From positions 1 through 22,924 of the IMG/VR virus record IMGVR_UViG_3300030103_000572: a stretch of 22,924 nucleotides of DNA; one strand, given 5' to 3'. Of the stretch, positions 4,629 through 22,181 are shown one piece after another; positions within the stretch are counted from its first letter, which is position 1; each line of letters begins with the position of its first letter. The translations under genes and the position numbers were made by a program. This DNA comes from a virus. The notes under the pieces are model-generated. The model was not told the DNA's origin. It saw only the letters and a program-made list of their open reading frames with translations, and made no database searches.

Positions 4629-7600
4629 ATGTCAGAGTTAGAAATACAACAAAATCCTGAACAAACAACTCCTGATGCTATTAAAGCAGAACCTATAAAT
4701 CAATTTGAAAAAGATCAAAAAGAAGCTTTAAAAAGAGCAGATGAAACAAGAGTTAAGTTAAATCCTGAACAAGATAGAAAAGAAGATTCTTTAATACAAA
4801 AGATAGGCAAAAGAGCTAAACTTGCAGAGGATGTACAAACTTACGGCCCTGTTGCTGCACCTTTAGTTGGTGCTGATATTCTTGCTCAAGCTACGGAAGG
4901 AATTGTTGGAGGTGATCTTGATGCGAAGGGTAAACAAAGAATAACGCAACAAAGAGACATAGGAACTCTTAGTTACAATGATTTTAAAGAAGGGATAAGA
5001 AACAACTCTATACAGGAATATCAGGGTAAAAACTTTTTACCTTCAATGGCAGAAAAAGATGATGCTCTACTGAAGTGGTGGAGTCAAAATATAGGTAAAA
5101 AACAAACTGTTAGTGATGACGGAAAAATATCTATAGCTAAAACATATTTAGAAGGTGCAGACGTTACACCTGAAGGTAAATATGTTCCTAGAAAAAATTT
5201 TTTAGAAACACACGATCCATACTTATTCAAAATATTTAACAACTCTAAGGAAAGACAACTTACTTTTCAAACTAAAGTATTAAGTCTTGTCAAAGATAAG
5301 ATAGGTGGAAACACAAATATTGATTCAGTTGGTCAAAACAGAGTTCAACAAATACTTGTTAACAACATATCTAACACAGAGTTTATACCTGTTCTTCAAG
5401 AAAGACTAAAAGAAATAAGTAGAGGTACTTTTTTAGAATTACCTGCACTCGCAAAAGATTTTGGTGTAGGTTATGTAGATGAGTTAGCTGAAAGAATAAC
5501 AGAATTAAGATCTGCAACAGGTGCTTCTTTTCTTGAAGCATGGTCAATGACTGAACCGTTCAGAAATAAAAAGACTGCTGAATTCCGAAAAAGTTTTGCT
5601 GATATAGGTGTAACTCAGTTATCAGATGTTATAAATAAAACTATTATAGAAGATTTAGAGCAACAAAAAAACGATGGAATTATAACTCCACAAAGATTTG
5701 AACAACTCACTCAAACAAAATTATCTGATGGCACAGTGTTACCTACTCAATTTGTATCAGAGTCAGACGCACAAGGCATATTAGAACTATCTTTTGAATC
5801 ACTTAATTCACCAGAGCAATTCGCAACTATTTTAGGCGAAAATATAATGTCTATGATATCTATAGGTGGTGCAAGTCAAGCTCTTGTTAAAAAGTTTGGA
5901 TTTGATCAAATAGAGATAGTAAAGCAAGCAATGAAAAAAAATCCAGAGCTTGCTAAATTAGGAGTTGCAGGAGCTGCCTTCAGATTAAAATCAGGTTCAG
6001 CAGCAGGTAAATTAAATTTAGTTGCGATAAAAAGAGGATTAGAAACTCAAAAACAAGAAGCCTATCAAATACGTCTGTCTAACACCATAGAAGAAAAAAG
6101 AGGTGAGCTAGACGTAATGTTATTATCAGGAAAAGCAGACAGTGCAGATTTCAAAATACTTAAAAATGAAATAGATGAATTAGTTACAAAAAGATATGTA
6201 GATAAAATTAAGTTAAGCACGTTGCCTATAGTCAGATCTACAGTTAAAGAAGCTTTTCCACTGAGTCTAGGGCAATACTACTTTGGAGAAGCTTATCAAT
6301 TTTTTAATCCTGAGATGAGTCAATTTGAAGGAGAGATGTGGGGTGCATTGACTTACATAGCAGGTGGTGGCTTTACTATGAAGGCTGTAGCAGGTAAAGT
6401 AGGTAGAGGTTTAGGAAATGTATTTTATAATCCTACTGCAACACGAAGTAGAATAGTTAAAAATTTAGGAGACTTTTTAGCTAATAATAAAGTTACATCA
6501 GGTCTTGTTGATTTTATAAGAACTAATCAATTTATTCAAGTAGGAAAAGGACTGATATTTCCTAACGCAGATTTACTTAAAAGATACAATCAAAAGCTGA
6601 TTGATGATAGAGGTTTTGGTTTAAGTAAAGATGAGTTTAAATCTTCAAGATATGTTCTTGAATTAGCAAGTGTTATGGATGAAAAGAATTTAGACAGAAC
6701 TCTTGATACTATAACACAATACACTACTATGGAAACTAAATTTATAAATTCATTCCCAGAAGAAGTCAGAGATACCGCTGCAGATTTATACAGATCTAAC
6801 TTTGCACAAGCATCAGGTATAGGTGCATTAGAAGCAGCAAGTGCTTTAGTAAATAACAAAATGAATTTTAGAGATGTTAAATCTTTAAAACATGTAGACG
6901 AAATGATTGATTTAGATAATTTAAATACAGAGCAAGTTCGTAAAAATAATTTTGCGATAAAAACATTTAGAGACATGTTAAAAGATAAAGGTATAGACAT
7001 CACAACTAATCAAGCAGGATTACAAATGCTTGATGTTCTAGAACAAGCAAACATAAATTTTATAAAAAGATTAGATGATCAAATGATCACTCTAGATAAA
7101 ACTCTAAAACAAATGAAAAGAGTTTATTTTTCAGATCCAACAAAAGACATACCTGAATCATTTCACGAAAATGTTTCGTTATTAGAAGAAAGAATAGGGG
7201 ATAGGATAACAAAGATAAAAGGCATGGAAGCAGACTTTGCCGATATTGAAAATCAAGCAACAGATGTCAACAAATTTTTCTTAGATAGAATAAATAAATT
7301 AAACACTATGGCAGATAAAGATGAAGCTTACATAAACGGAACAAGATTACTTGTAGAAGAATTTATATCTCATACTATGGGAGCAGGCAGAAGATATGCA
7401 GCACGTGGTTACAGAGAAACAGAACAGTTAGCTGAAAAATTAAATGTAAAGATAGATTTAACTGACTCCATATTTGCTATGAAAAATATGAAACAGGAAC
7501 TCGCAGCCATCCCTTTAAAAATGTTGTTTTCAAAAGAAGGTGCATTTTTTAACAGTGTCATGGGTAGAAAAGCTTACGTTTCGTTTCAAAGGATGGCTAG

Positions 7601-9647
7601 AAACGGACTTAATGATTTAGACCCAACAGTCAGAGTTGATTTGGAACAGATGGCTACAAATCCTAAGAGTGAACATTTCATAAGTCAAGAAGCCACTGAA
7701 CTTGACATAGCATTATATTGGTCTGATTGGTTTAAGAAAAATGGCACAGCCGATGCACCTGTTAAATTTCAACCTTTTCTTGCAACACCGAAAGATATAA
7801 ACACAATGCAAACTGCATTTGTTGAATTTGGTTATAAGATTGGTGATGAATCTTTAGCAAAACAATATATTGATTACGGAGAATCTTTAGGTGATTTAGT
7901 AACAGCACAGTCTGCAGAGCTAGGTGCGTCTTATAAAAAAGCTGCAGAATTATATCAAAACGAATACTTTGATAGAATAAGAAAAGGATTTATGGGCAAA
8001 TTAATAACAGCAAGAGATGGGCCTAGAACAGTTGCAGGTAAATTAAAAGGTGAAGATATAGCTAAAATGGCTAGAGAAGAAGGCATTGACTTAGACAAAG
8101 ATTCACTAAAAATACTTAAAGGAGATGTTGCATTTAAGTTTGCCTATAAGAACAACATGAATCCTCTGACTGCTTTTAAACCAATGGTTGATCAAATAGT
8201 AAAATTATCCAAAGAAAAGAACGCTGTAGCAAGTTCTGAATTAAAAGAAGCATTTAGTAACTTACAATTTAATTTTGGTGGAAGAGTTGGTGGTAAGCCT
8301 GTGTTTGATTTAACAACTCCTAAAGGTAGACAAGACTTTAATATGATCACTGGTCTTGTAAGCACAATGGTGAGAGCAAACTGGGCAACTAAAGCAACAA
8401 GCGAATTAAAAAAAGCGACAAGTCCTAGAGCAAGAATAGCTTTAAGAAAACAAGAAGGTTACGATTTTACAACTTATGAAAACTTAGATTCTATATCGAG
8501 TAGTTTAACATTTAAAGTTCGTGAGATTGATGAAAACGGAAATACTGTTATACGAAAAAAACAAGCAATAGATCTTACCAGTATTCTATCTCAACAAAAG
8601 GATATCGTTGCTCAGATGGGTAAACATGAGGAACTACGTGATGAGTACGGAAAATTAGTAAATAGGTTTGAGGATCAAAAAGACGAGTTAATAGCCACAA
8701 CAAAAACTGACAGTAAGATAGAACAATTTATATTTCAAGAAGTTGAAAAACTTGGGAATATAGGAGGTGATCCTGAAAAGTTTTATGATGAATATGTAAC
8801 AAGAGGTAGACCTGAAAAGCTAAGAAAATTAAAAGATAAAATATTAAAAGAATTAACTTCAGATCCTAACATGACAGAAGCTGATTTAGAGGTTACTCGT
8901 AAAAAAATAAACGATGGCATAGCTTCTCTTATAGCAAAGGGAGGATTAGCACGAGCAGGTTTAAGAACTGGTAAGGGTATGGTAAGAGATGAAGACGTGC
9001 CTGACGTATTCTTTGATCCTAAGATTGAAGGTAAAGATACTTTACCTTTTAATTTATCTTCTAGAACTAAGATAGGGATTGATGGTCAAAAACATCCTAT
9101 ACAAGTTTTACAAACTCCTCAAGATTTAGTTTTAGATTTACAAGATGCAAACAAAAGAGCCGTATTTCAAGAAGTAATGGATCAAGAACATTTTTCATAT
9201 TTTGAAAATATGGTAGGATATATGGCTCTTGTAGAAAAAGGAGATTTTAGCAGAGTCAAGCTTGAAGGATTAACTAGAGGTATATCCACAAACGAAGCTA
9301 TCAGTAGAGCGTTTAACTTAGCTAGAGGTATGGTTAGTCCAACATACGTGGCCGCAGAGTTTGCAGTTCGCATAGCAGAAATGAGGGGAATACAATTACT
9401 TGGACTTGTTGCCCAAGACAAAGAAGCTGCTAGAATTATGAAAGACATGTTTACGATAGGTGTTAAACCTTCTGAAAGAGATGTTGGAAAGTTATCAGAG
9501 TTAATTGTTAATTTTGTTTTTAAAGACTTAGCTAGAGCAGGATTAGAACCACCTAAATATGTTCCAACGACTGAAGCAGAGTTAGCTGAAGCAGAAGAGA
9601 AATTAATTGAGCAATATAAAAAAGAAAAAGAAGAAGAGGAAAGTTAA
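4629..9647 (+). CDS. giant internal virion (ejection) protein, gp16-like by position
   Basis: This encodes 1672 residues, the largest gene in the window. Its ATG directly follows the preceding TAA. The N-terminus is Gln/Glu/Lys-rich, and there are Ala/Gly-rich moderately hydrophobic stretches near residues 73-95, 398-420 and 443-460. Much of the middle is helical with coiled-coil character, and the last 25 residues are a Glu/Lys tail. I see no lysozyme or lytic transglycosylase signature near the N-terminus, where T7 gp16 carries one. As the last large protein after a gp14/gp15-like pair it fits the inner-membrane-spanning ejection protein. Coding-strand composition is very A-rich, unlike the minus-strand operon. 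A tail-associated tape-measure-like role is a less likely alternative for a podovirus. Confidence 0.6.
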   Translation: MSELEIQQNPEQTTPDAIKAEPINQFEKDQKEALKRADETRVKLNPEQDRKEDSLIQKIGKRAKLAEDVQTYGPVAAPLVGADILAQATEGIVGGDLDAKGKQRITQQRDIGTLSYNDFKEGIRNNSIQEYQGKNFLPSMAEKDDALLKWWSQNIGKKQTVSDDGKISIAKTYLEGADVTPEGKYVPRKNFLETHDPYLFKIFNNSKERQLTFQTKVLSLVKDKIGGNTNIDSVGQNRVQQILVNNISNTEFIPVLQERLKEISRGTFLELPALAKDFGVGYVDELAERITELRSATGASFLEAWSMTEPFRNKKTAEFRKSFADIGVTQLSDVINKTIIEDLEQQKNDGIITPQRFEQLTQTKLSDGTVLPTQFVSESDAQGILELSFESLNSPEQFATILGENIMSMISIGGASQALVKKFGFDQIEIVKQAMKKNPELAKLGVAGAAFRLKSGSAAGKLNLVAIKRGLETQKQEAYQIRLSNTIEEKRGELDVMLLSGKADSADFKILKNEIDELVTKRYVDKIKLSTLPIVRSTVKEAFPLSLGQYYFGEAYQFFNPEMSQFEGEMWGALTYIAGGGFTMKAVAGKVGRGLGNVFYNPTATRSRIVKNLGDFLANNKVTSGLVDFIRTNQFIQVGKGLIFPNADLLKRYNQKLIDDRGFGLSKDEFKSSRYVLELASVMDEKNLDRTLDTITQYTTMETKFINSFPEEVRDTAADLYRSNFAQASGIGALEAASALVNNKMNFRDVKSLKHVDEMIDLDNLNTEQVRKNNFAIKTFRDMLKDKGIDITTNQAGLQMLDVLEQANINFIKRLDDQMITLDKTLKQMKRVYFSDPTKDIPESFHENVSLLEERIGDRITKIKGMEADFADIENQATDVNKFFLDRINKLNTMADKDEAYINGTRLLVEEFISHTMGAGRRYAARGYRETEQLAEKLNVKIDLTDSIFAMKNMKQELAAIPLKMLFSKEGAFFNSVMGRKAYVSFQRMARNGLNDLDPTVRVDLEQMATNPKSEHFISQEATELDIALYWSDWFKKNGTADAPVKFQPFLATPKDINTMQTAFVEFGYKIGDESLAKQYIDYGESLGDLVTAQSAELGASYKKAAELYQNEYFDRIRKGFMGKLITARDGPRTVAGKLKGEDIAKMAREEGIDLDKDSLKILKGDVAFKFAYKNNMNPLTAFKPMVDQIVKLSKEKNAVASSELKEAFSNLQFNFGGRVGGKPVFDLTTPKGRQDFNMITGLVSTMVRANWATKATSELKKATSPRARIALRKQEGYDFTTYENLDSISSSLTFKVREIDENGNTVIRKKQAIDLTSILSQQKDIVAQMGKHEELRDEYGKLVNRFEDQKDELIATTKTDSKIEQFIFQEVEKLGNIGGDPEKFYDEYVTRGRPEKLRKLKDKILKELTSDPNMTEADLEVTRKKINDGIASLIAKGGLARAGLRTGKGMVRDEDVPDVFFDPKIEGKDTLPFNLSSRTKIGIDGQKHPIQVLQTPQDLVLDLQDANKRAVFQEVMDQEHFSYFENMVGYMALVEKGDFSRVKLEGLTRGISTNEAISRAFNLARGMVSPTYVAAEFAVRIAEMRGIQLLGLVAQDKEAARIMKDMFTIGVKPSERDVGKLSELIVNFVFKDLARAGLEPPKYVPTTEAELAEAEEKLIEQYKKEKEEEES

Positions 9648-10204: not shown

Positions 10205-10673
10205 GGCAAGGACTCAACTTATCTATTCGTAGATTGTAGCAATCGGCTTTGAATGTATAGCCGTTGTCTAAATCGATATCCCCTTTTCTGTACAGAGTGG
10301 CTTCTTTGTAAAAGTTTTGCTTGGAGATGCCACCAAGAATCCAAGCTTTACTCATATCTGTGAGTATGCGAACAAACACATACGCATCACAATCTTGTTT
10401 AGTTCCATGCAACGCTACAGAACAATCATAGTTAGGTAACGGTTTGGTGTTGCAACGCTTGGTCTTAACATCAATACGCATCCCATCCTTAACTAGATCA
10501 TAATCGTATGTATTTATTTGCTTTGCATTAATACTATCAGCAACGACTAACTCACCTATCGCACCTACAACGTTGCTAGTGCCACCTGTAATACTTCCCT
10601 GCAATATGCCCACAGTAGAAGCTTTTTCCCTCGCACGGTTCATATAGTCGTCATTGATCGATATCTCTATCAT
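10188..10673 (-). CDS. PD-(D/E)XK nuclease-like protein
   Basis: This encodes 161 residues. The pattern GAIGE (Glu41), then YDYDL (Asp57/Asp59), then RIDVKTK (Asp68, Lys70) is the core arrangement of the PD-(D/E)XK nuclease fold: a helix Glu, then two acidic residues and a Lys on adjacent strands. The C-terminal half includes several Cys (84, 95, 145, 156) that are not spaced like a known zinc motif. The ATG overlaps the nrdJ stop as TAATG, so it is co-translated with the reductase. A role in cutting branched, host or damaged DNA is likely. Such small nucleases are common in podovirus replication operons. Substrate and activity cannot be read from the sequence. Confidence 0.6.
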   Translation of the reverse strand: MIEISINDDYMNRAREKASTVGILQGSITGGTSNVVGAIGELVVADSINAKQINTYDYDLVKDGMRIDVKTKRCNTKPLPNYDCSVALHGTKQDCDAYVFVRILTDMSKAWILGGISKQNFYKEATLYRKGDIDLDNGYTFKADCYNLRIDKLSPCHEIKN

Positions 10674-12601
10674 TAGCTTGCACTCAAGTCCACGACTTCA
10701 CAGGCATCTGCAGTGCATGCTAACTCACGAGATCCACTTGTATTATCTTCCTTTTCATACATAGAGAACTTAGTCCAGTCGAGTGATGTCGGCACACGCC
10801 CATTCCATTCGAGATATTCATCTGCATCTATGTCCTGATAAGGAGCTTGTTGATAGGTGTGATCGGAGAACGGTAGAAAAGATACCCCTGATGCAATATC
10901 AAAGTTATCATACAACCATGCACCCACTTCCATCCACTCTTCTTCCTTTACAGAAATAGTAACGGATGGTTTGTGTTCACACCAGTTAAGTGCATAAAGT
11001 TTCCATAACTCTAGTTGCTCTATTGCACTCATCTCTGTTCTAGTGACTGCACCACTAGGAGATTTCATAGGAAACGAAAACACAGTAACACTATCAGGTT
11101 TTGTGATATCAGCTTCGTTAGGTATACCCTCCTCTTTCATAAATTGTGTGAGTGGATCTTTGTTATCTCCACGTACAGTTCTTATATAAAAAGGATTGTG
11201 TCTAGCGTGTATACCTGACGCTGAATCAGTAAGCTGTGATACTGTACCACTTGGCTTTACACATGTGATAGCCGTGCTTCTTGGTATGCCAATAGCATCT
11301 GCATACTCTCTGTTTGTATCGACTGCAACTTGTTTCATTTCTTGTAACCAAACTTTTGAGTCCGTCATTCCTGACAAGACATTGTGATCCATGATACCAG
11401 TTAATGATACACCAAGCAACCTTTCTTCTTCTGTGTTTGTTTTCCAAACTCTACGTAAATATTTTAAATCTGTAAGAGTAGATTGAAACGTACCCAAGAT
11501 CGTTGCAACTCTTACCTTAGATCGTAAACTCAACAGGTCATCGCCCTCACGAACTACAACCTCTGATAGATTACAGAACTGATAAGGTCTGAGGATAATC
11601 TCACTACATGGATTAGTACCCCACATGTGACCAGTCTGTCGTCTACCATTCTTTGCGACTTGATCGTCTGCAGCTTTGCGATTAAACATACCACGCTCAC
11701 CTGACTTTGACTCATACAAAGCTAACCACTCTCTCATGTAAGTTTCCATAGCAGGCTTGCCTTTGTAAGCCACAGAGTTGTTTGCTAACGCTCTTTGACC
11801 GTTGTTGTTCCACCACTCTCCTGCTTTTGCGTGAGCCATTTGATCATCGTTCAAGTTAGATAGACTGATCAGTGCAGATCTACGTACTCCACCTACTACA
11901 ACAACCTCTCCAACTTTGCACATAATATCGTGACATTCTACTGGAAATAACTTTCTTCCCTTTGCACTCTTGAATTTATCAATAGTGAACTTAAATAAGT
12001 TAACAAGAGGATCAGGTCCTGATGCTCTCCCACCCATAATCTTCAGCTTTGCACCTGCAGGGCGTATCTTAGATACATCCCAAGACGGTATCATTCCTGA
12101 ATAGAGTAAAGCCACAAGCTCACGAAATGCTTTTGCCCACCCTGCTTTACTATCATCCACAACAATCACTACATCAGACTCTTGCATGTTTTCGCTAATG
12201 ATAGGTAGCTTGTCTACGTTTTCTCTTTCTACAGAGAACCCTACACCTGTGCCACACATAAGAATGTACATGGCTTCATCGAAAGATCGTGGACTATCTA
12301 CTGGAAGATAACTACAGTTGTAACCACAGACGTTATCTCGTTTTAATGCAGGTCCTGCAGTCATCAATGCTCTCATAGATGGCATGACGCTTAGATTAGT
12401 TATGTATTCATCTATGGCTTGCTTATCGCCCTTTTTCATTTTGTAGTTGTGCTTTTCTAACAAAGCTTCTTCCATAAAGTCTACGTATCTAGAAACTGTT
12501 TCACCCCAGTTCTCTCTTCTTCCCTCTTCTTCGAGCCAACGAGCATATCTAGATTTGTGTATGAACTCTTGGTAGGATGTTGGTAACATGTTAGACGACA
12601 T
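10673..12601 (-). CDS. nrdJ: adenosylcobalamin-dependent (class II) ribonucleotide reductase, monomeric RTPR type
   Basis: This encodes 642 residues. It reduces ribonucleotides to deoxyribonucleotides using a cobalamin-generated thiyl radical, supplying dNTPs for phage replication. The active-site loop TNPCSEI gives Asn330, Cys332 (thiyl) and Glu334. Cys343 follows 11 residues on (QFCNL), the same spacing as Cys408/Cys419 in the Lactobacillus leichmannii enzyme. Cys96 (GYNCS) is the likely N-terminal redox partner. The C-terminal pair Cys629/Cys634 (CTADAC) matches the shuttle cysteines Cys731/Cys736 in spacing. No radical-tyrosyl subunit gene is nearby, as expected for class II. It is shorter than the 739-residue reference but complete, with no intein. 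A GGGGA site precedes the ATG, which overlaps the DUF3310 gene by 11 bases. Confidence 0.93.
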   Translation of the reverse strand: MSSNMLPTSYQEFIHKSRYARWLEEEGRRENWGETVSRYVDFMEEALLEKHNYKMKKGDKQAIDEYITNLSVMPSMRALMTAGPALKRDNVCGYNCSYLPVDSPRSFDEAMYILMCGTGVGFSVERENVDKLPIISENMQESDVVIVVDDSKAGWAKAFRELVALLYSGMIPSWDVSKIRPAGAKLKIMGGRASGPDPLVNLFKFTIDKFKSAKGRKLFPVECHDIMCKVGEVVVVGGVRRSALISLSNLNDDQMAHAKAGEWWNNNGQRALANNSVAYKGKPAMETYMREWLALYESKSGERGMFNRKAADDQVAKNGRRQTGHMWGTNPCSEIILRPYQFCNLSEVVVREGDDLLSLRSKVRVATILGTFQSTLTDLKYLRRVWKTNTEEERLLGVSLTGIMDHNVLSGMTDSKVWLQEMKQVAVDTNREYADAIGIPRSTAITCVKPSGTVSQLTDSASGIHARHNPFYIRTVRGDNKDPLTQFMKEEGIPNEADITKPDSVTVFSFPMKSPSGAVTRTEMSAIEQLELWKLYALNWCEHKPSVTISVKEEEWMEVGAWLYDNFDIASGVSFLPFSDHTYQQAPYQDIDADEYLEWNGRVPTSLDWTKFSMYEKEDNTSGSRELACTADACEVVDLSAS

Positions 12602-15731: not shown

Positions 15732-17261
15732 TTACAGACTTACTTCAGATAAGTCAAGCCAATTTTTTCCTATCTTTAATTCTATGCCGACTGGCATGTC
15801 ATACTCTATGCCGTACCTACGTTTTGTCTCACTTGGCAAACAAAGCATGGCATCTTTTAACATCAATATTATATCTATCTTTTCATCAGGATGAACATCA
15901 ACAACTATGGAATCGTGTACTGTGTTGCATATAACAGACTTCATTCGGTTGTTTCTTATCTGTGTATCTAACCTTACCAACGCAATGGGCAATAGATCAG
16001 CCGTAGCGAACCCCTGAACAGGGTAATTACAGATAGCAGTACGATTGGTAGCTGAACCCCATTCTGTCCACCTAGCGTCAGGAAACGAGTATTCTCTACC
16101 TGATGGTAATTTAACGAGTTTTGTGGTGACGGCTTCTTTTTCTAGTTGTTTGTGCCACTCACTCACTTGTTCGTACTTCTCTTTGAACTTTTGATAGTAT
16201 TGTTGCTGACTGCGTGTGCCACTCACACCACCATACAAAGGTTTAAATGTGTGTGCTTTTGCTTCTTGTCGAGAACAACCAATGATGGATGCTGTATAGC
16301 TATGAACATCTGTGCCTTTTTTTACATCATTGTACACTTGTTTATCTTTTGCAAGAAAGCCTGCCACCCTGAACTCCAACTGTGAGTAATCACCCTCAAG
16401 TATGAATCCGTTTTCAAATCTACTTTCAACAACCTTACGTATTGCAAACGTTGAACCTCGTGGCATGTTTTGAAAGTTAGGATTGCGACTAGATAGTCTA
16501 CCAGTTGCAGTTACACATTGCATGAACTCAGGATGAATAAAGCTATCGTCATCCACATTGTTTTTCATACCCTCAACAAAGGTAGACAGATAGGTACGCA
16601 AAGCATTGTATCGTACATAAGCTTCACAGAACTCACGAGCGTTGCCGTCTAGTTCAGATAGCCTATCTTCTAGGGTTACCTTGTCTGTCTTGAAACCTGC
16701 TGATGCAGTGTCTCTTACTGTACGTGGTATGAGCTTGAACCCTGCCACCTCACCAGTAGATGTGTAGGTAACGCCCTTGCCTATACAAACTTTGCACACT
16801 CGTTTTGCCTTGCCAACACTACCATCTTTCTTTAGTGGAGTTGTGCGGCCTGAACCACCACAAGTCTGACACTGGCGACCTATAGTCTTGTATACCACAT
16901 CAGTCATGCGTCTTACACACCTGACAAACTCTGTATTCTTCATACGAGTTTTCATCTTGGGTTTGATTGTGTTGCCACGCATCTCGTGTCCAAGATTAAA
17001 TGTCATTGACCACAAAGCTTTGTCTTTTACTTTACGTGAGTAAAGCAACATGCTTTTGTCGTCAGGACTGGCTAAGTTTATGGGAGTGTCACCCATAGCT
17101 TCTTTTGCCAGTTCGTGTAGCCGAGTTTCTAGCTCGTGCATCTCATCTTCGTATTCTTTTTCTATCTTGTCCAGTGTATCTAGATTAACTTTCAATCCGT
17201 TGTGTTCTATCCTAGATAGTACGTTTGTCATTTCAAACGATAACTTTAATGTTTCCTTCAT
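15732..17261 (-). CDS. family A DNA polymerase, polymerase part, with inserted DnaJ-type zinc finger
   Basis: This encodes 509 residues from the ATG at 17261, which has GAGGA five bases upstream. A TTG at 17273 would add four residues. Palm motif A is at 290-297 (GDYSQLEF, Asp291, Glu296). The O-helix runs Arg331, Lys335, Phe339, Tyr343; Phe339 aligns with E. coli Pol I Phe762. Motif C is VHDS with Asp450. Between thumb and palm lie two CxxCxGxG units (Cys131/Cys134 and Cys156/Cys159), the DnaJ central-domain pattern, as I recall described for the HMO-2011 phage polymerase. There is no exonuclease domain in this ORF. It is encoded by the overlapping upstream gene in the other frame. Together they give about 700 residues, close to T7 gp5. 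Confidence 0.93.
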   Translation of the reverse strand: MKETLKLSFEMTNVLSRIEHNGLKVNLDTLDKIEKEYEDEMHELETRLHELAKEAMGDTPINLASPDDKSMLLYSRKVKDKALWSMTFNLGHEMRGNTIKPKMKTRMKNTEFVRCVRRMTDVVYKTIGRQCQTCGGSGRTTPLKKDGSVGKAKRVCKVCIGKGVTYTSTGEVAGFKLIPRTVRDTASAGFKTDKVTLEDRLSELDGNAREFCEAYVRYNALRTYLSTFVEGMKNNVDDDSFIHPEFMQCVTATGRLSSRNPNFQNMPRGSTFAIRKVVESRFENGFILEGDYSQLEFRVAGFLAKDKQVYNDVKKGTDVHSYTASIIGCSRQEAKAHTFKPLYGGVSGTRSQQQYYQKFKEKYEQVSEWHKQLEKEAVTTKLVKLPSGREYSFPDARWTEWGSATNRTAICNYPVQGFATADLLPIALVRLDTQIRNNRMKSVICNTVHDSIVVDVHPDEKIDIILMLKDAMLCLPSETKRRYGIEYDMPVGIELKIGKNWLDLSEVSL

Positions 17262-17808
17262 AGAGTTCCTCAAATGTTAAGCCAAAGGCTTCTAGTTGTT
17301 TTAATGCAACCTCTTCTGTTGCGACTACATCGGCAATGCCGTATTCTTTTACTATCTCTGCAGGTATGTCGTAGAACGTTTTGCCCTCTTTAAGATACGG
17401 TGTAACCAAGTCCGTTTCTTTTTGGGTAACGTTATAGCGTTTTGCAAGAGCATCAAGTGCCAAAGACCAACGCCTTCCTTTCGACCGAAGATATTCTGCA
17501 ACCATCGTATCATATAAAACTCCCTTGTAATCAAAACCACATGATCTCAACCATGTTATGTCAAATTTAATATTTTGTCCAACAAGCACATCAGCTTCCC
17601 AAAGATCTTTTTGTATACGATCCACGATTGATGACTCATAATTGTACTCACTGTCCTTGTGATAGAAAAACTCATAGTTAACGTGATCGTTTAATAACCA
17701 CTTCCAACCCACTGATACCAAACGATTATTGAAGTAGGGCAACGCAGTAGTGCCACCCCCAACTTTATCTTTGTGTGTAGTTTCTACATCAATAGTTAAC
17801 ACATTCAT
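17233..17808 (-). CDS. 3'-5' exonuclease (proofreading domain of the split family A polymerase)
   Basis: This encodes 191 residues from the ATG at 17808, whose A is the last base of the helicase stop (TAATG). The DEDDy exonuclease motifs are all present: Exo I TIDVETT (Asp7, Glu9), Exo II GQNIKFD (Asp83) and Exo III YGIAD (Tyr156, Asp160). This is the proofreading module that normally forms the N-terminus of the polymerase. Here the frame stops 31 codons after Asp160, just past the polymerase ATG, with a 29-base overlap. The product may act with the polymerase as a separate subunit. A longer reading to 17862 would overlap the helicase by 55 bases and adds no conserved sequence. Confidence 0.9.
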   Translation of the reverse strand: MNVLTIDVETTHKDKVGGGTTALPYFNNRLVSVGWKWLLNDHVNYEFFYHKDSEYNYESSIVDRIQKDLWEADVLVGQNIKFDITWLRSCGFDYKGVLYDTMVAEYLRSKGRRWSLALDALAKRYNVTQKETDLVTPYLKEGKTFYDIPAEIVKEYGIADVVATEEVALKQLEAFGLTFEELYEGNIKVIV

Positions 17809-19034
17809 TAATAATACACTCCCCTGCTTATGTCTATTTGGGCATTGATCATACCATGCCACCCATTAATTTTATTTTTTGAAATACAGATATGCCTGAC
17901 TATGTTGTCCACCTCACTTGAACCAGTCTTGCCTATGCCAATTATTATATCTGCTTCTCCTGCCTTGCCAGTCTTTGAGTTGTCTAACATGGCATAGTCG
18001 ATGAACTGTCTGTCGTGAGCATCATAACTAGCTTGGCTAACTGCCCAAACAAGACACGTATTACGTTTAGCTATTTCTCTTGCACACACGTAAGTTTCCT
18101 TGAGACGCTCATCACCACGATTGTACTCACCTTTTATCCTGAACTTGTCTAGCTGATCACAAAACATTATATCAGGTTTGTTTAACTTAGCGTAGTCATC
18201 TACTTCTTCGATCGATGTACCCACCGAATCCATGATAGTCAGGTACGGTTCTATCTCTTTCTTGTATACCTCAAGCAATTCAAACCTCTGTGCAACCATT
18301 TCTTCTTTTGTCAGTCCAAAGTAAGACTGTATTATTCTTAATTTTATTCGTGCAGCAGGTTCTTCGTTCGCCCAATAAACCACCTGAAACCCTTGTCTTA
18401 TGTATGACGATGCAAGAAAGCAACAAAACGTAGTCTTACCTACTTCAGGTCTTGCAAACAAGATACCCAAGTTGCCACGATCTAAACCCCTGATGTTCTC
18501 ATTTATTAAGTTGAACGTGAATGGGAAATCATTGTCACCTGCTACCTCTGTCAGCAGTTCATTCAGATCTTTGTCAACCACAGTGTAAGTTGTCTTGTCA
18601 CCTATCCTGCCGTCATCTACACTTTCGATTAGCTTCTTTAACTCACCGAACTCATCACTGTCACCAGTGAATATGTCTAAGGCTTTCTCACCTATCTGTC
18701 TAGCTTTGTCACGTAACCACAAATTGTTTACAATGTCAGTATGTAACTCATCACTTTCTTTTGGTGCAACGAGTTGTTCAACCATCTCTTGTACACGCTT
18801 ACGTGCAGAGTCAGGCATGGCAGGATTACGATCATTAAATATTGTTGATAGTTCAGACACAGATAAACTACGATTGTACTTGGTATGTGAATAAACTATC
18901 GTATCGAATATATCTTTAAGTTCATTGTCGAACATAGTCCGATCAATTTTATTTTTTACTTTGTTGAAAAAGTCAACGTTAAGACAGAAACCTAATACTT
19001 GTCTGTCAATCGATATAACGCCTGATGAACTCAT
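17808..19034 (-). CDS. DnaB/T7 gp4-type replicative DNA helicase
   Basis: This encodes 408 residues. The N-terminal 130 or so residues are helical, like the DnaB N-domain. The RecA-like motor follows, with Walker A ARPEVGKT (Lys200), a catalytic Glu in WANEEP (224-225), Walker B DIMFCD (Asp293), a sensor-type Gln334 (AVSQAS) and ISKNK near 384, typical of the hexameric SF4 family. It unwinds DNA 5'-3' ahead of the polymerase. A strong site (GAGGGGAAAGAA) precedes the ATG, which lies inside the end of the primase gene with a 29-base overlap. Unlike in T7, primase and helicase are separate polypeptides. The Walker A motif has Ala where Gly is usual at its first position. Confidence 0.92.
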   Translation of the reverse strand: MSSSGVISIDRQVLGFCLNVDFFNKVKNKIDRTMFDNELKDIFDTIVYSHTKYNRSLSVSELSTIFNDRNPAMPDSARKRVQEMVEQLVAPKESDELHTDIVNNLWLRDKARQIGEKALDIFTGDSDEFGELKKLIESVDDGRIGDKTTYTVVDKDLNELLTEVAGDNDFPFTFNLINENIRGLDRGNLGILFARPEVGKTTFCCFLASSYIRQGFQVVYWANEEPAARIKLRIIQSYFGLTKEEMVAQRFELLEVYKKEIEPYLTIMDSVGTSIEEVDDYAKLNKPDIMFCDQLDKFRIKGEYNRGDERLKETYVCAREIAKRNTCLVWAVSQASYDAHDRQFIDYAMLDNSKTGKAGEADIIIGIGKTGSSEVDNIVRHICISKNKINGWHGMINAQIDISRGVYY

Positions 19035-20796: not shown

Positions 20797-21030
20797 ATGG
20801 CTAAGAAAGAAAAATGGGAAATAGAAAGAGATAAAGAGAATAAGCTAAAAACAGATGCTATGAAGTCTCTTACCAAAGATCAATTAGATGCAATCAATCT
20901 AACTCATAAAGCTATTGAAGATGCTCTTTTAAACATAAGAGAAATAGAAGATCTATATTTATCTGATATAAAGAATTTAGATATTGCTTTTTGGAGATTA
21001 AGAAATCAATTTAATTTAGGGGATAATTAA
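20797..21030 (+). CDS. 77-residue helical charged protein of unknown function
   Basis: This encodes 77 residues from the ATG at 20797, with AAGGA six bases upstream. The protein is almost entirely helical by composition: a Lys/Glu-rich N-terminal third, then an amphipathic region (AIEDALLNIREIEDLYL) and one Trp in AFWRL. There is no Cys or Gly-rich loop. A TTG at 20782 would extend it by five residues but overrun the ribosome site. The TAA overlaps the methyltransferase start as TAATG, so the two are co-translated. I do not recognise it; a partner or regulator of the methyltransferase is possible from position only. Confidence 0.6.
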   Translation: MAKKEKWEIERDKENKLKTDAMKSLTKDQLDAINLTHKAIEDALLNIREIEDLYLSDIKNLDIAFWRLRNQFNLGDN

Positions 21031-22181
21031 TGAACTGGCTTAATTTATGTAGTGGTGGCGAGATAGGTCGCCAAGCAGTAAAAGAACTAGGACTACCAGT
21101 GACTAACTGGTTTAGTTCTGAAATAGATAAGTTTGCTATCAAGGTAGCTCAAGATAATCACGATGACATAACCCATCTAGGTGACATAAAAAACATAATG
21201 AAGTTTTGGGATTGGAATAGATTTCCAAAGATAGATGTCATTCTATGTGGATCACCTTGTCAGGGATTTTCTGTGGCAGGCAAAGGTTTAAATTTTGAAC
21301 ATCCTCAATCGAAGTTGTTCTTTGAGTTTGTCAAGATATACAAGTATCATTTCAAACGTAATCCAAAGTTAAAACTGTTATTTGAAAACGTGCGAATGAA
21401 AAAAGAATGGCAAGAGATTATTGTCAGCACATTACAAGACATAAATCCTAAACTAAAAATGCACATGATCAATTCATCTATCGTATCTGCACAGAATAGA
21501 GTACGTATGTACATAACTGATTTTGAATTTGATATACCTGAAGATAGAGGTATCAAGTTAAAAGATATAATTGAATGTGGTTGTGTAGATAGAGACAAGT
21601 CATACTGTCTAGATGCTAATTATTGGAAAGGTGGTAACTTGCGAACTTACTTTGAGAAGTCACGTAGACAGTTGGTATTTGGTGATGGTTGCAAACAAGT
21701 TGGTGTAGCTGATCTGAATGGACATGACATATTAAAGCGTGTCTACTCTATCGAGGGAAAGTCACCCACATTGAATACTTGTGGTGGTGGCAATCGTGAA
21801 CCAAAGATTGTCTGTGGAGATAAACCACTTCGCTCTGCTTCGGTAAAAGGCAGACGCATTAATCAAGATGGAGTACGAAAGGATAACGACAAGTCTATTC
21901 CACTTGTACAGACACTTGAAGTTTACGACAACGATAAGTCACGGTGTCTATCTACAGTAGACAAAGACGCAGTAGTTTCACCACTACCAGTTGGTCGCTA
22001 TCCACACGCTTATACAGATAGTGCTTTACAATGGCGTAAACTTACTGTAAGGGAATGTTGTAGGTTGCAAACGTTACCTGATGATTATTGTAAATCTGTA
22101 AGCAACAGTCAGGGATATAAGATACTTGGGAACGGTTGGACTAACGAAGTCATTAAGTTTATATTGAAAGGAAAAAGCTAA
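21030..22181 (+). CDS. orphan DNA (cytosine-5) methyltransferase
   Basis: This encodes 383 residues. The C5-methyltransferase motifs occur in order: motif I for S-adenosylmethionine (LCSGGEIG, 6-13), motif IV GSPCQGFS with catalytic Cys77, motif VI FENV (Glu119), motif VIII QNRVR (155-159), a variable target-recognition region at about 185-330, motif IX around RECCRLQTLP (341-350) and motif X ILGNG (365-369). It transfers a methyl group to cytosine C5. No restriction endonuclease gene is adjacent, so it most likely protects phage DNA from host restriction or marks it for timing. The target sequence cannot be read from the protein. Start and stop are both TAATG overlaps with neighbours. Confidence 0.93.
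   Translation: MNWLNLCSGGEIGRQAVKELGLPVTNWFSSEIDKFAIKVAQDNHDDITHLGDIKNIMKFWDWNRFPKIDVILCGSPCQGFSVAGKGLNFEHPQSKLFFEFVKIYKYHFKRNPKLKLLFENVRMKKEWQEIIVSTLQDINPKLKMHMINSSIVSAQNRVRMYITDFEFDIPEDRGIKLKDIIECGCVDRDKSYCLDANYWKGGNLRTYFEKSRRQLVFGDGCKQVGVADLNGHDILKRVYSIEGKSPTLNTCGGGNREPKIVCGDKPLRSASVKGRRINQDGVRKDNDKSIPLVQTLEVYDNDKSRCLSTVDKDAVVSPLPVGRYPHAYTDSALQWRKLTVRECCRLQTLPDDYCKSVSNSQGYKILGNGWTNEVIKFILKGKS

Follow-up and report, generated by a model that had tools for sequence, protein, structure and literature searches.

Does the phage described here make its replicative DNA polymerase as one protein or as two? In textbook family A polymerases, proofreading and synthesis reside on one chain. The window, by which we mean the whole stretch of DNA analysed (an IMG/VR virus record of 22,924 bases, i.e. 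a fragment of 22.9 kb), has on its minus strand the gene order primase, DnaB-like helicase, exonuclease ORF and polymerase ORF. A first-pass annotation, made from the letters alone, had placed all exonuclease motifs in one ORF and all polymerase motifs in the next, and had offered four explanations: a real two-subunit polymerase, a programmed +1 shift, a recent mutation or a sequencing indel. The features that bear on the question are as follows.

17808..19034, minus strand: DnaB-like helicase gene (phrog_19, 6e-54), immediately upstream of the exonuclease gene
17233..17808, minus strand: exonuclease gene, predicted stand-alone 3'-5' proofreading exonuclease of 191 aa (Pfam DNA_pol_A_exo1, 3e-9)
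17782..17790, minus strand: Exo I (DVE), D7 and E9 invariant in 42 exonucleases
17560..17574, minus strand: Exo II (NIKFD), N79 and D83 invariant in 42 exonucleases
17329..17343, minus strand: Exo III (YGIAD), Y156 and D160 invariant in 42 exonucleases
17267..17271, minus strand: Shine-Dalgarno sequence GAGGA within exonuclease codons, 5 nt upstream of the polymerase ATG
17233..17261, minus strand: overlap of the exonuclease and polymerase genes, 29 nt, polymerase frame one base forward (+1)
15732..17261, minus strand: polymerase gene, predicted thumb, palm and fingers of a family A DNA polymerase, 509 aa (Pfam DNA_pol_A, 6e-55)
16773..16871, minus strand: DnaJ-type zinc-binding insertion with two CxxCxGxG motifs, both present in 122 of 123 relatives
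16368..16391, minus strand: polymerase motif A (DYSQLEFR), found as DY.QLEFR in 123/123
16230..16271, minus strand: polymerase motif B (RQEAKAHTFKPLYG), Phe762 type, 123/123
15912..15917, minus strand: polymerase motif C, HD followed by S (TVHDSI), TVHDSI in 123/123

Each set of motifs proved to be complete in its own ORF. The exonuclease ORF spans 17862–17233 (minus strand) with the ATG at 17808 as likely start, which overlaps the helicase stop by 1 nt. Its product has the motifs Exo I–III of a DEDDy-type 3'-5' exonuclease, but carries them as a separate protein; invariance of the motif residues was scored across 42 diverse sequences. The AlphaFold2 model is that of a complete domain (pLDDT 91), and its best match in the PDB is the exonuclease domain of DNA polymerase I (8oo6, TMq 0.71). 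The sole badly disordered stretch of the model is its last block (pLDDT 35).

The polymerase gene has its own ATG at 17261, and its stop ends at 15732. Motifs A, B and C place the product in family A, with motif C in the form HD-S, not HD-E. The HD-S form in place of the usual HD-E is shared by every one of the 123 split polymerases checked and by the fused HMO-2011-type relatives. Here, too, AlphaFold2 predicts a complete domain (pLDDT 89), the first helix of which starts at residue 2; the best PDB matches are Bacillus DNA polymerase I fragments. Judged from sequence divergence, both genes are under purifying selection: dN/dS is 0.05–0.10 for the polymerase and 0.08–0.23 for the exonuclease, the latter mostly about twice the polymerase value.

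The window phage is an HMO-2011-type marine phage. The cultured phages closest to it by polymerase belong to this type (HTVC033P with 48% identity; CRP-3, HMO-2011 and others with 37–41%). Two CxxCxGxG motifs are a hallmark of HMO-2011-type polymerases (PMC9038755) and are found at residues 131–138 and 156–163 of the window polymerase. Relatedness of capsid, portal and TerL was scored on the contigs of four near-full-length split relatives (52.7–56.3 kb), in which identity to HTVC033P is 50–51% for TerL, 52–56% for the portal and 60–63% for the coat protein. HMO-2011, HTVC033P and the CRP phages share with the window the gene order primase, DnaB helicase, polymerase as well as both CxxCxGxG motifs, and HMO-2011-type polymerases are 37–48% identical to that of the window over the whole polymerase part. 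What differs is the number of chains: all HMO-2011-type isolates examined have one chain of about 680–715 aa, and single chains of 540–779 aa are recorded in surveys, whereas the window has 191 + 509 aa in two genes. The host cannot be named from GTDB genomes, which gave three loci only (the full-length one with 42% identity, the best partial one with 49%).

The layout of the junction was as first annotated, with the polymerase frame one base forward, an overlap of 29 nt (17233–17261) and a GAGGA five bases before the polymerase ATG (17271–17267). The earlier claim that no residues are missing across the junction also holds: in alignments with single-chain relatives, the break falls in the variable linker that connects the Exo III helix to the first helix of the polymerase. 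Since the boundary lies within this flexible linker, each protein is a complete domain. The exonuclease residues encoded by the overlap correspond to the disordered tail and are variable in relatives.

A search of related phage and metagenome contigs for the same split, as the first-pass annotation had suggested, showed it to recur in public contigs with 124 distinct junction sequences, which is far beyond chance. Among the first 80 relatives (72–92% identity), the split is present in all 77 loci that cover the exonuclease, always with a +1 offset, and in a second ring of relatives the count is 71/71. Pooled, 148 of the 148 exonuclease-containing loci among the first 154 relatives retrieved, from many independent metagenomes, are split. 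The nearest relative, L404, stems from another metagenome and has a junction of identical layout; its polymerase is 97.4% identical to that of the window, and its exonuclease 100% over residues 51–191. A single continuous ORF in every close relative would have spoken against the split; the opposite was found, as only more distant relatives are single-chain.

The split and fused types sort by relatedness. A scan with a DNA pattern common to both revealed 48 split and 47 fused loci; nearly all polymerases at least 52% identical to that of the window are split, while those nearer to HTVC033P are fused. The 80 loci closest to HTVC033P are all fused except L232. This HTVC033P-like contig (2459–2774) is broken within the exonuclease domain, probably through an error or as a pseudogene, and was set aside as a candidate for a true split because of the position of the break.

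The polymerase start is conserved among the 124 distinct junctions, with ATG in 111, TTG in 11 and GTG in two. A Shine-Dalgarno sequence lies 3–12 nt upstream of this start in 119 of the 124, compared with 11% at random positions of the exonuclease gene (kinship uncorrected). An in-frame start with a Shine-Dalgarno sequence occurs at the homologous place in 125 of 130 split loci versus 13 of 127 fused ones, again without correction for kinship. The Glu codon within the Shine-Dalgarno sequence is GAG in 121/121 sequences, while GAG accounts for 680 of 1698 Glu codons (40%) elsewhere in the exonuclease gene, likewise uncorrected for kinship. Codon-position variability was compared in three junction groups, with 17, 42 and 20 sequences. 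Upstream of the polymerase ATG, variability peaks at the wobble position of the exonuclease frame, and downstream of it at that of the polymerase frame. This switch at the ATG indicates that polymerase coding begins there and that the exonuclease tail in the overlap can vary freely.

Other properties of the junction are not fixed. The genes overlap by 1–68 nt or are separated by gaps of 245–1243 nt, the frame offset is +1 in 117 of the 124 junctions and +2 in seven, and the exonuclease stop differs in type and place. In L284 (4419–4859) and the related loci L395–L401, a gene for a PD-(D/E)XK nuclease (Pfam PDDEXK_14, 2e-37) lies exactly between the two halves, in L284 with short overlaps to both of them; it possibly represents a free-standing mobile nuclease. 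In L287 (1081–2417) and L321 (2286–3631), several small ORFs lie between the halves, one of which has a helix-turn-helix-like match. Where the contigs allow this to be judged, the exonuclease and polymerase genes strictly co-occur; they almost always lie side by side with an overlap.

A tree built from 89 polymerase parts unites every true split sequence with one fused sublineage of 10 rows in a single clade (SH-aLRT 99), amid otherwise fused HMO-2011-type phages. The fused sublineage comprises L285, L356, L386, L392 and L413–L419; its place inside the split clade possibly reflects re-fusion, a second split elsewhere or an error of the tree. The tree requires two changes, but a topology with all split sequences forced into one clade is not rejected (p-AU 0.38). 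One split with or without later re-fusion and two splits are possible histories.

Comparison at the sequence level establishes a conserved gene pair, separately started, with the catalytic residues kept in both members. It supports the earlier proposal of a real two-gene phage polymerase with independent but coupled translation. We consider it highly probable, taking the account as a whole, that two adjacent, overlapping genes, separately started and coupled, encode the family A replicative polymerase of this phage. Ribosomes would translate the exonuclease gene. Polymerase synthesis would be initiated independently, at an ATG 29 nt upstream of the exonuclease stop, using the GAGGA embedded in exonuclease codons (translational coupling); the gene boundary falls in the flexible linker that joins both domains in single-chain relatives. 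The exonuclease may then bind the polymerase non-covalently as its proofreading partner, rebuilding a Klenow-like enzyme, and the coupling may keep the ratio of the two proteins balanced. The split would have arisen within one HMO-2011-type subclade. Two separately started, coupled genes are very likely; a two-subunit enzyme whose products bind each other is likely. The junction RNA showed no structure that would enforce coupling, folding no better than shuffled sequence. Many exonuclease stops lie 29–41 nt past the polymerase start; this fits de novo initiation in the course of translation better than a strict stop-and-restart.

The alternative that survives best accepts two proteins but no complex: the polymerase would work unproofread and the exonuclease would have another job, e.g. 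in the processing of host DNA or of ends. The several genes parting the halves in L287 and L321 would agree with this, as would the mostly twofold higher dN/dS of the exonuclease. We nevertheless consider it improbable, as it leaves aside the strict co-occurrence and nearly constant adjacency of the two genes, and the exonuclease is a direct homologue of the proofreading domain in fused relatives.

Programmed +1 ribosomal frameshifting, which would yield a fused polymerase alone or alongside the separate proteins, is much less probable still. The commonest offset is indeed +1 (117/124), and a fusion would be seamless. The +1 frameshift signal of the RF2 type includes an internal Shine-Dalgarno sequence, and such a sequence is present here. 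A frameshift gene should, however, have a conserved shift site and a fixed offset, whereas stop position, overlap and frame vary in this clade and whole genes intervene in some relatives; no shift signal could operate in all of these layouts. What is conserved instead is a start codon, present at every chosen junction (111 ATG), together with the Shine-Dalgarno sequence. In addition, the exonuclease stop of the window lies 29 nt beyond the polymerase ATG, not beside the Shine-Dalgarno sequence as in RF2, and the RNA structure of the junction is unremarkable. The frameshift listed by the first-pass annotation was thus rejected in favour of separate initiation, with a slight probability left for a low-level fusion beside the separate proteins.

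An indel from sequencing or assembly, or a mutation that recently inactivated the gene in this one phage, has a negligible chance of being the explanation. One extra or missing base would suffice to produce the observed frames, cultured relatives have one continuous ORF, and L232 looks broken in this way, though within the exonuclease domain. Such an accident does not account for a break at the same linker in each of the 148 close relatives whose contigs include the exonuclease, from many independent metagenomes, nor for the shared junction of L404, the conserved GAG codon and Shine-Dalgarno sequence or the purifying selection on both genes. Equally remote is the idea that the ORFs are exons joined across an intron, as the MEP401 authors suggested for another split phage polymerase (PMC10580990) and in line with known group I introns in phage polymerase genes such as that of Pf-WMP3 (PMC3428280): the window ORFs overlap and leave no room for an intron, in relatives, the DNA between the halves carries ordinary ORFs, and translation of the polymerase begins at a start codon of its own.

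Other phages are already known to encode exonuclease and polymerase separately, and the split in HMO-2011-type phages is a variant of that arrangement. All phages of the LUZ24 group, of which the Pseudomonas phages LUZ24, PaP3, tf and UFV-P2 are named, have separate genes for a 3'-5' exonuclease and a family A polymerase (PMC3517423). The window resembles them in having the two as separately started genes, with the proofreading exonuclease as a gene of its own downstream of the helicase gene. In LUZ24, however, gp25 and gp34 are separated by about 2.3 kb and many genes, whereas the genes of the window clade are overlapping and coupled; this clade also differs from the LUZ24 group by the DnaJ-type zinc insertion and by having single-chain sister lineages. 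Separate exonuclease and polymerase genes are also reported for Escherichia phage phiEco32, as cited in PMC3517423; by that report it is like the window in gene separation, but it belongs to a different phage group.

A split family A polymerase has been described for the MEP401-type OM43 phages (Zobellviridae; PMC10580990), which are likewise marine and have related replication genes. In them, the polymerase domain itself is interrupted, a small ORF separates its parts, the exonuclease is joined to the N-terminal polymerase part, and the DnaJ-type insertion is lacking. For HMO-2011-type phages, no report of a split polymerase was found in the open literature searched, subscription papers being outside that search. 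Surveys of this group report one chain and retained polymerases only if they exceeded 540 aa and reached at least 80% coverage (PMC9038755). As a polymerase of 509 aa, out of about 680, is below both limits, the window clade was probably filtered out. Surveys that use the length of the HMO-2011-type polymerase as a marker thus have a blind spot for the uncultured split clade.

The clade provides a natural series within one abundant group of ocean phages, from the single chain to overlaps of 4 nt and 29 nt and to genes that are apart, with fused sisters alongside. This makes it testable whether proofreading needs a covalent linkage and how gene fission becomes fixed via an internal start site. 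A further reading, which we regard as rather doubtful, is that the proofreading domain may be a dissociable subunit across this whole marine phage clade, its amount set by its own start site, in principle like DnaQ of bacterial polymerase III. If this were true, the fused and split states within the clade would allow loss and regain of the covalent link to be traced.

Some observations concern other genes of the window. A protein of 1672 aa (4629–9647) without a PHROGs match is possibly a large internal virion protein. A ribonucleotide reductase gene (10673–12601; phrog_367, 8e-184; Pfam class II insertion domain) lies near the end of the replication operon. Recoding in the ribonucleotide reductase and TerL genes of the related contigs G005 and G006 was considered and rejected, as the flagged in-frame stops are the genes' own ends or neighbouring stops. 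A gene for a C-5 cytosine DNA methylase (21030–22181; Pfam DNA_methylase, 3e-37) is encoded on the strand opposite to the replication genes.
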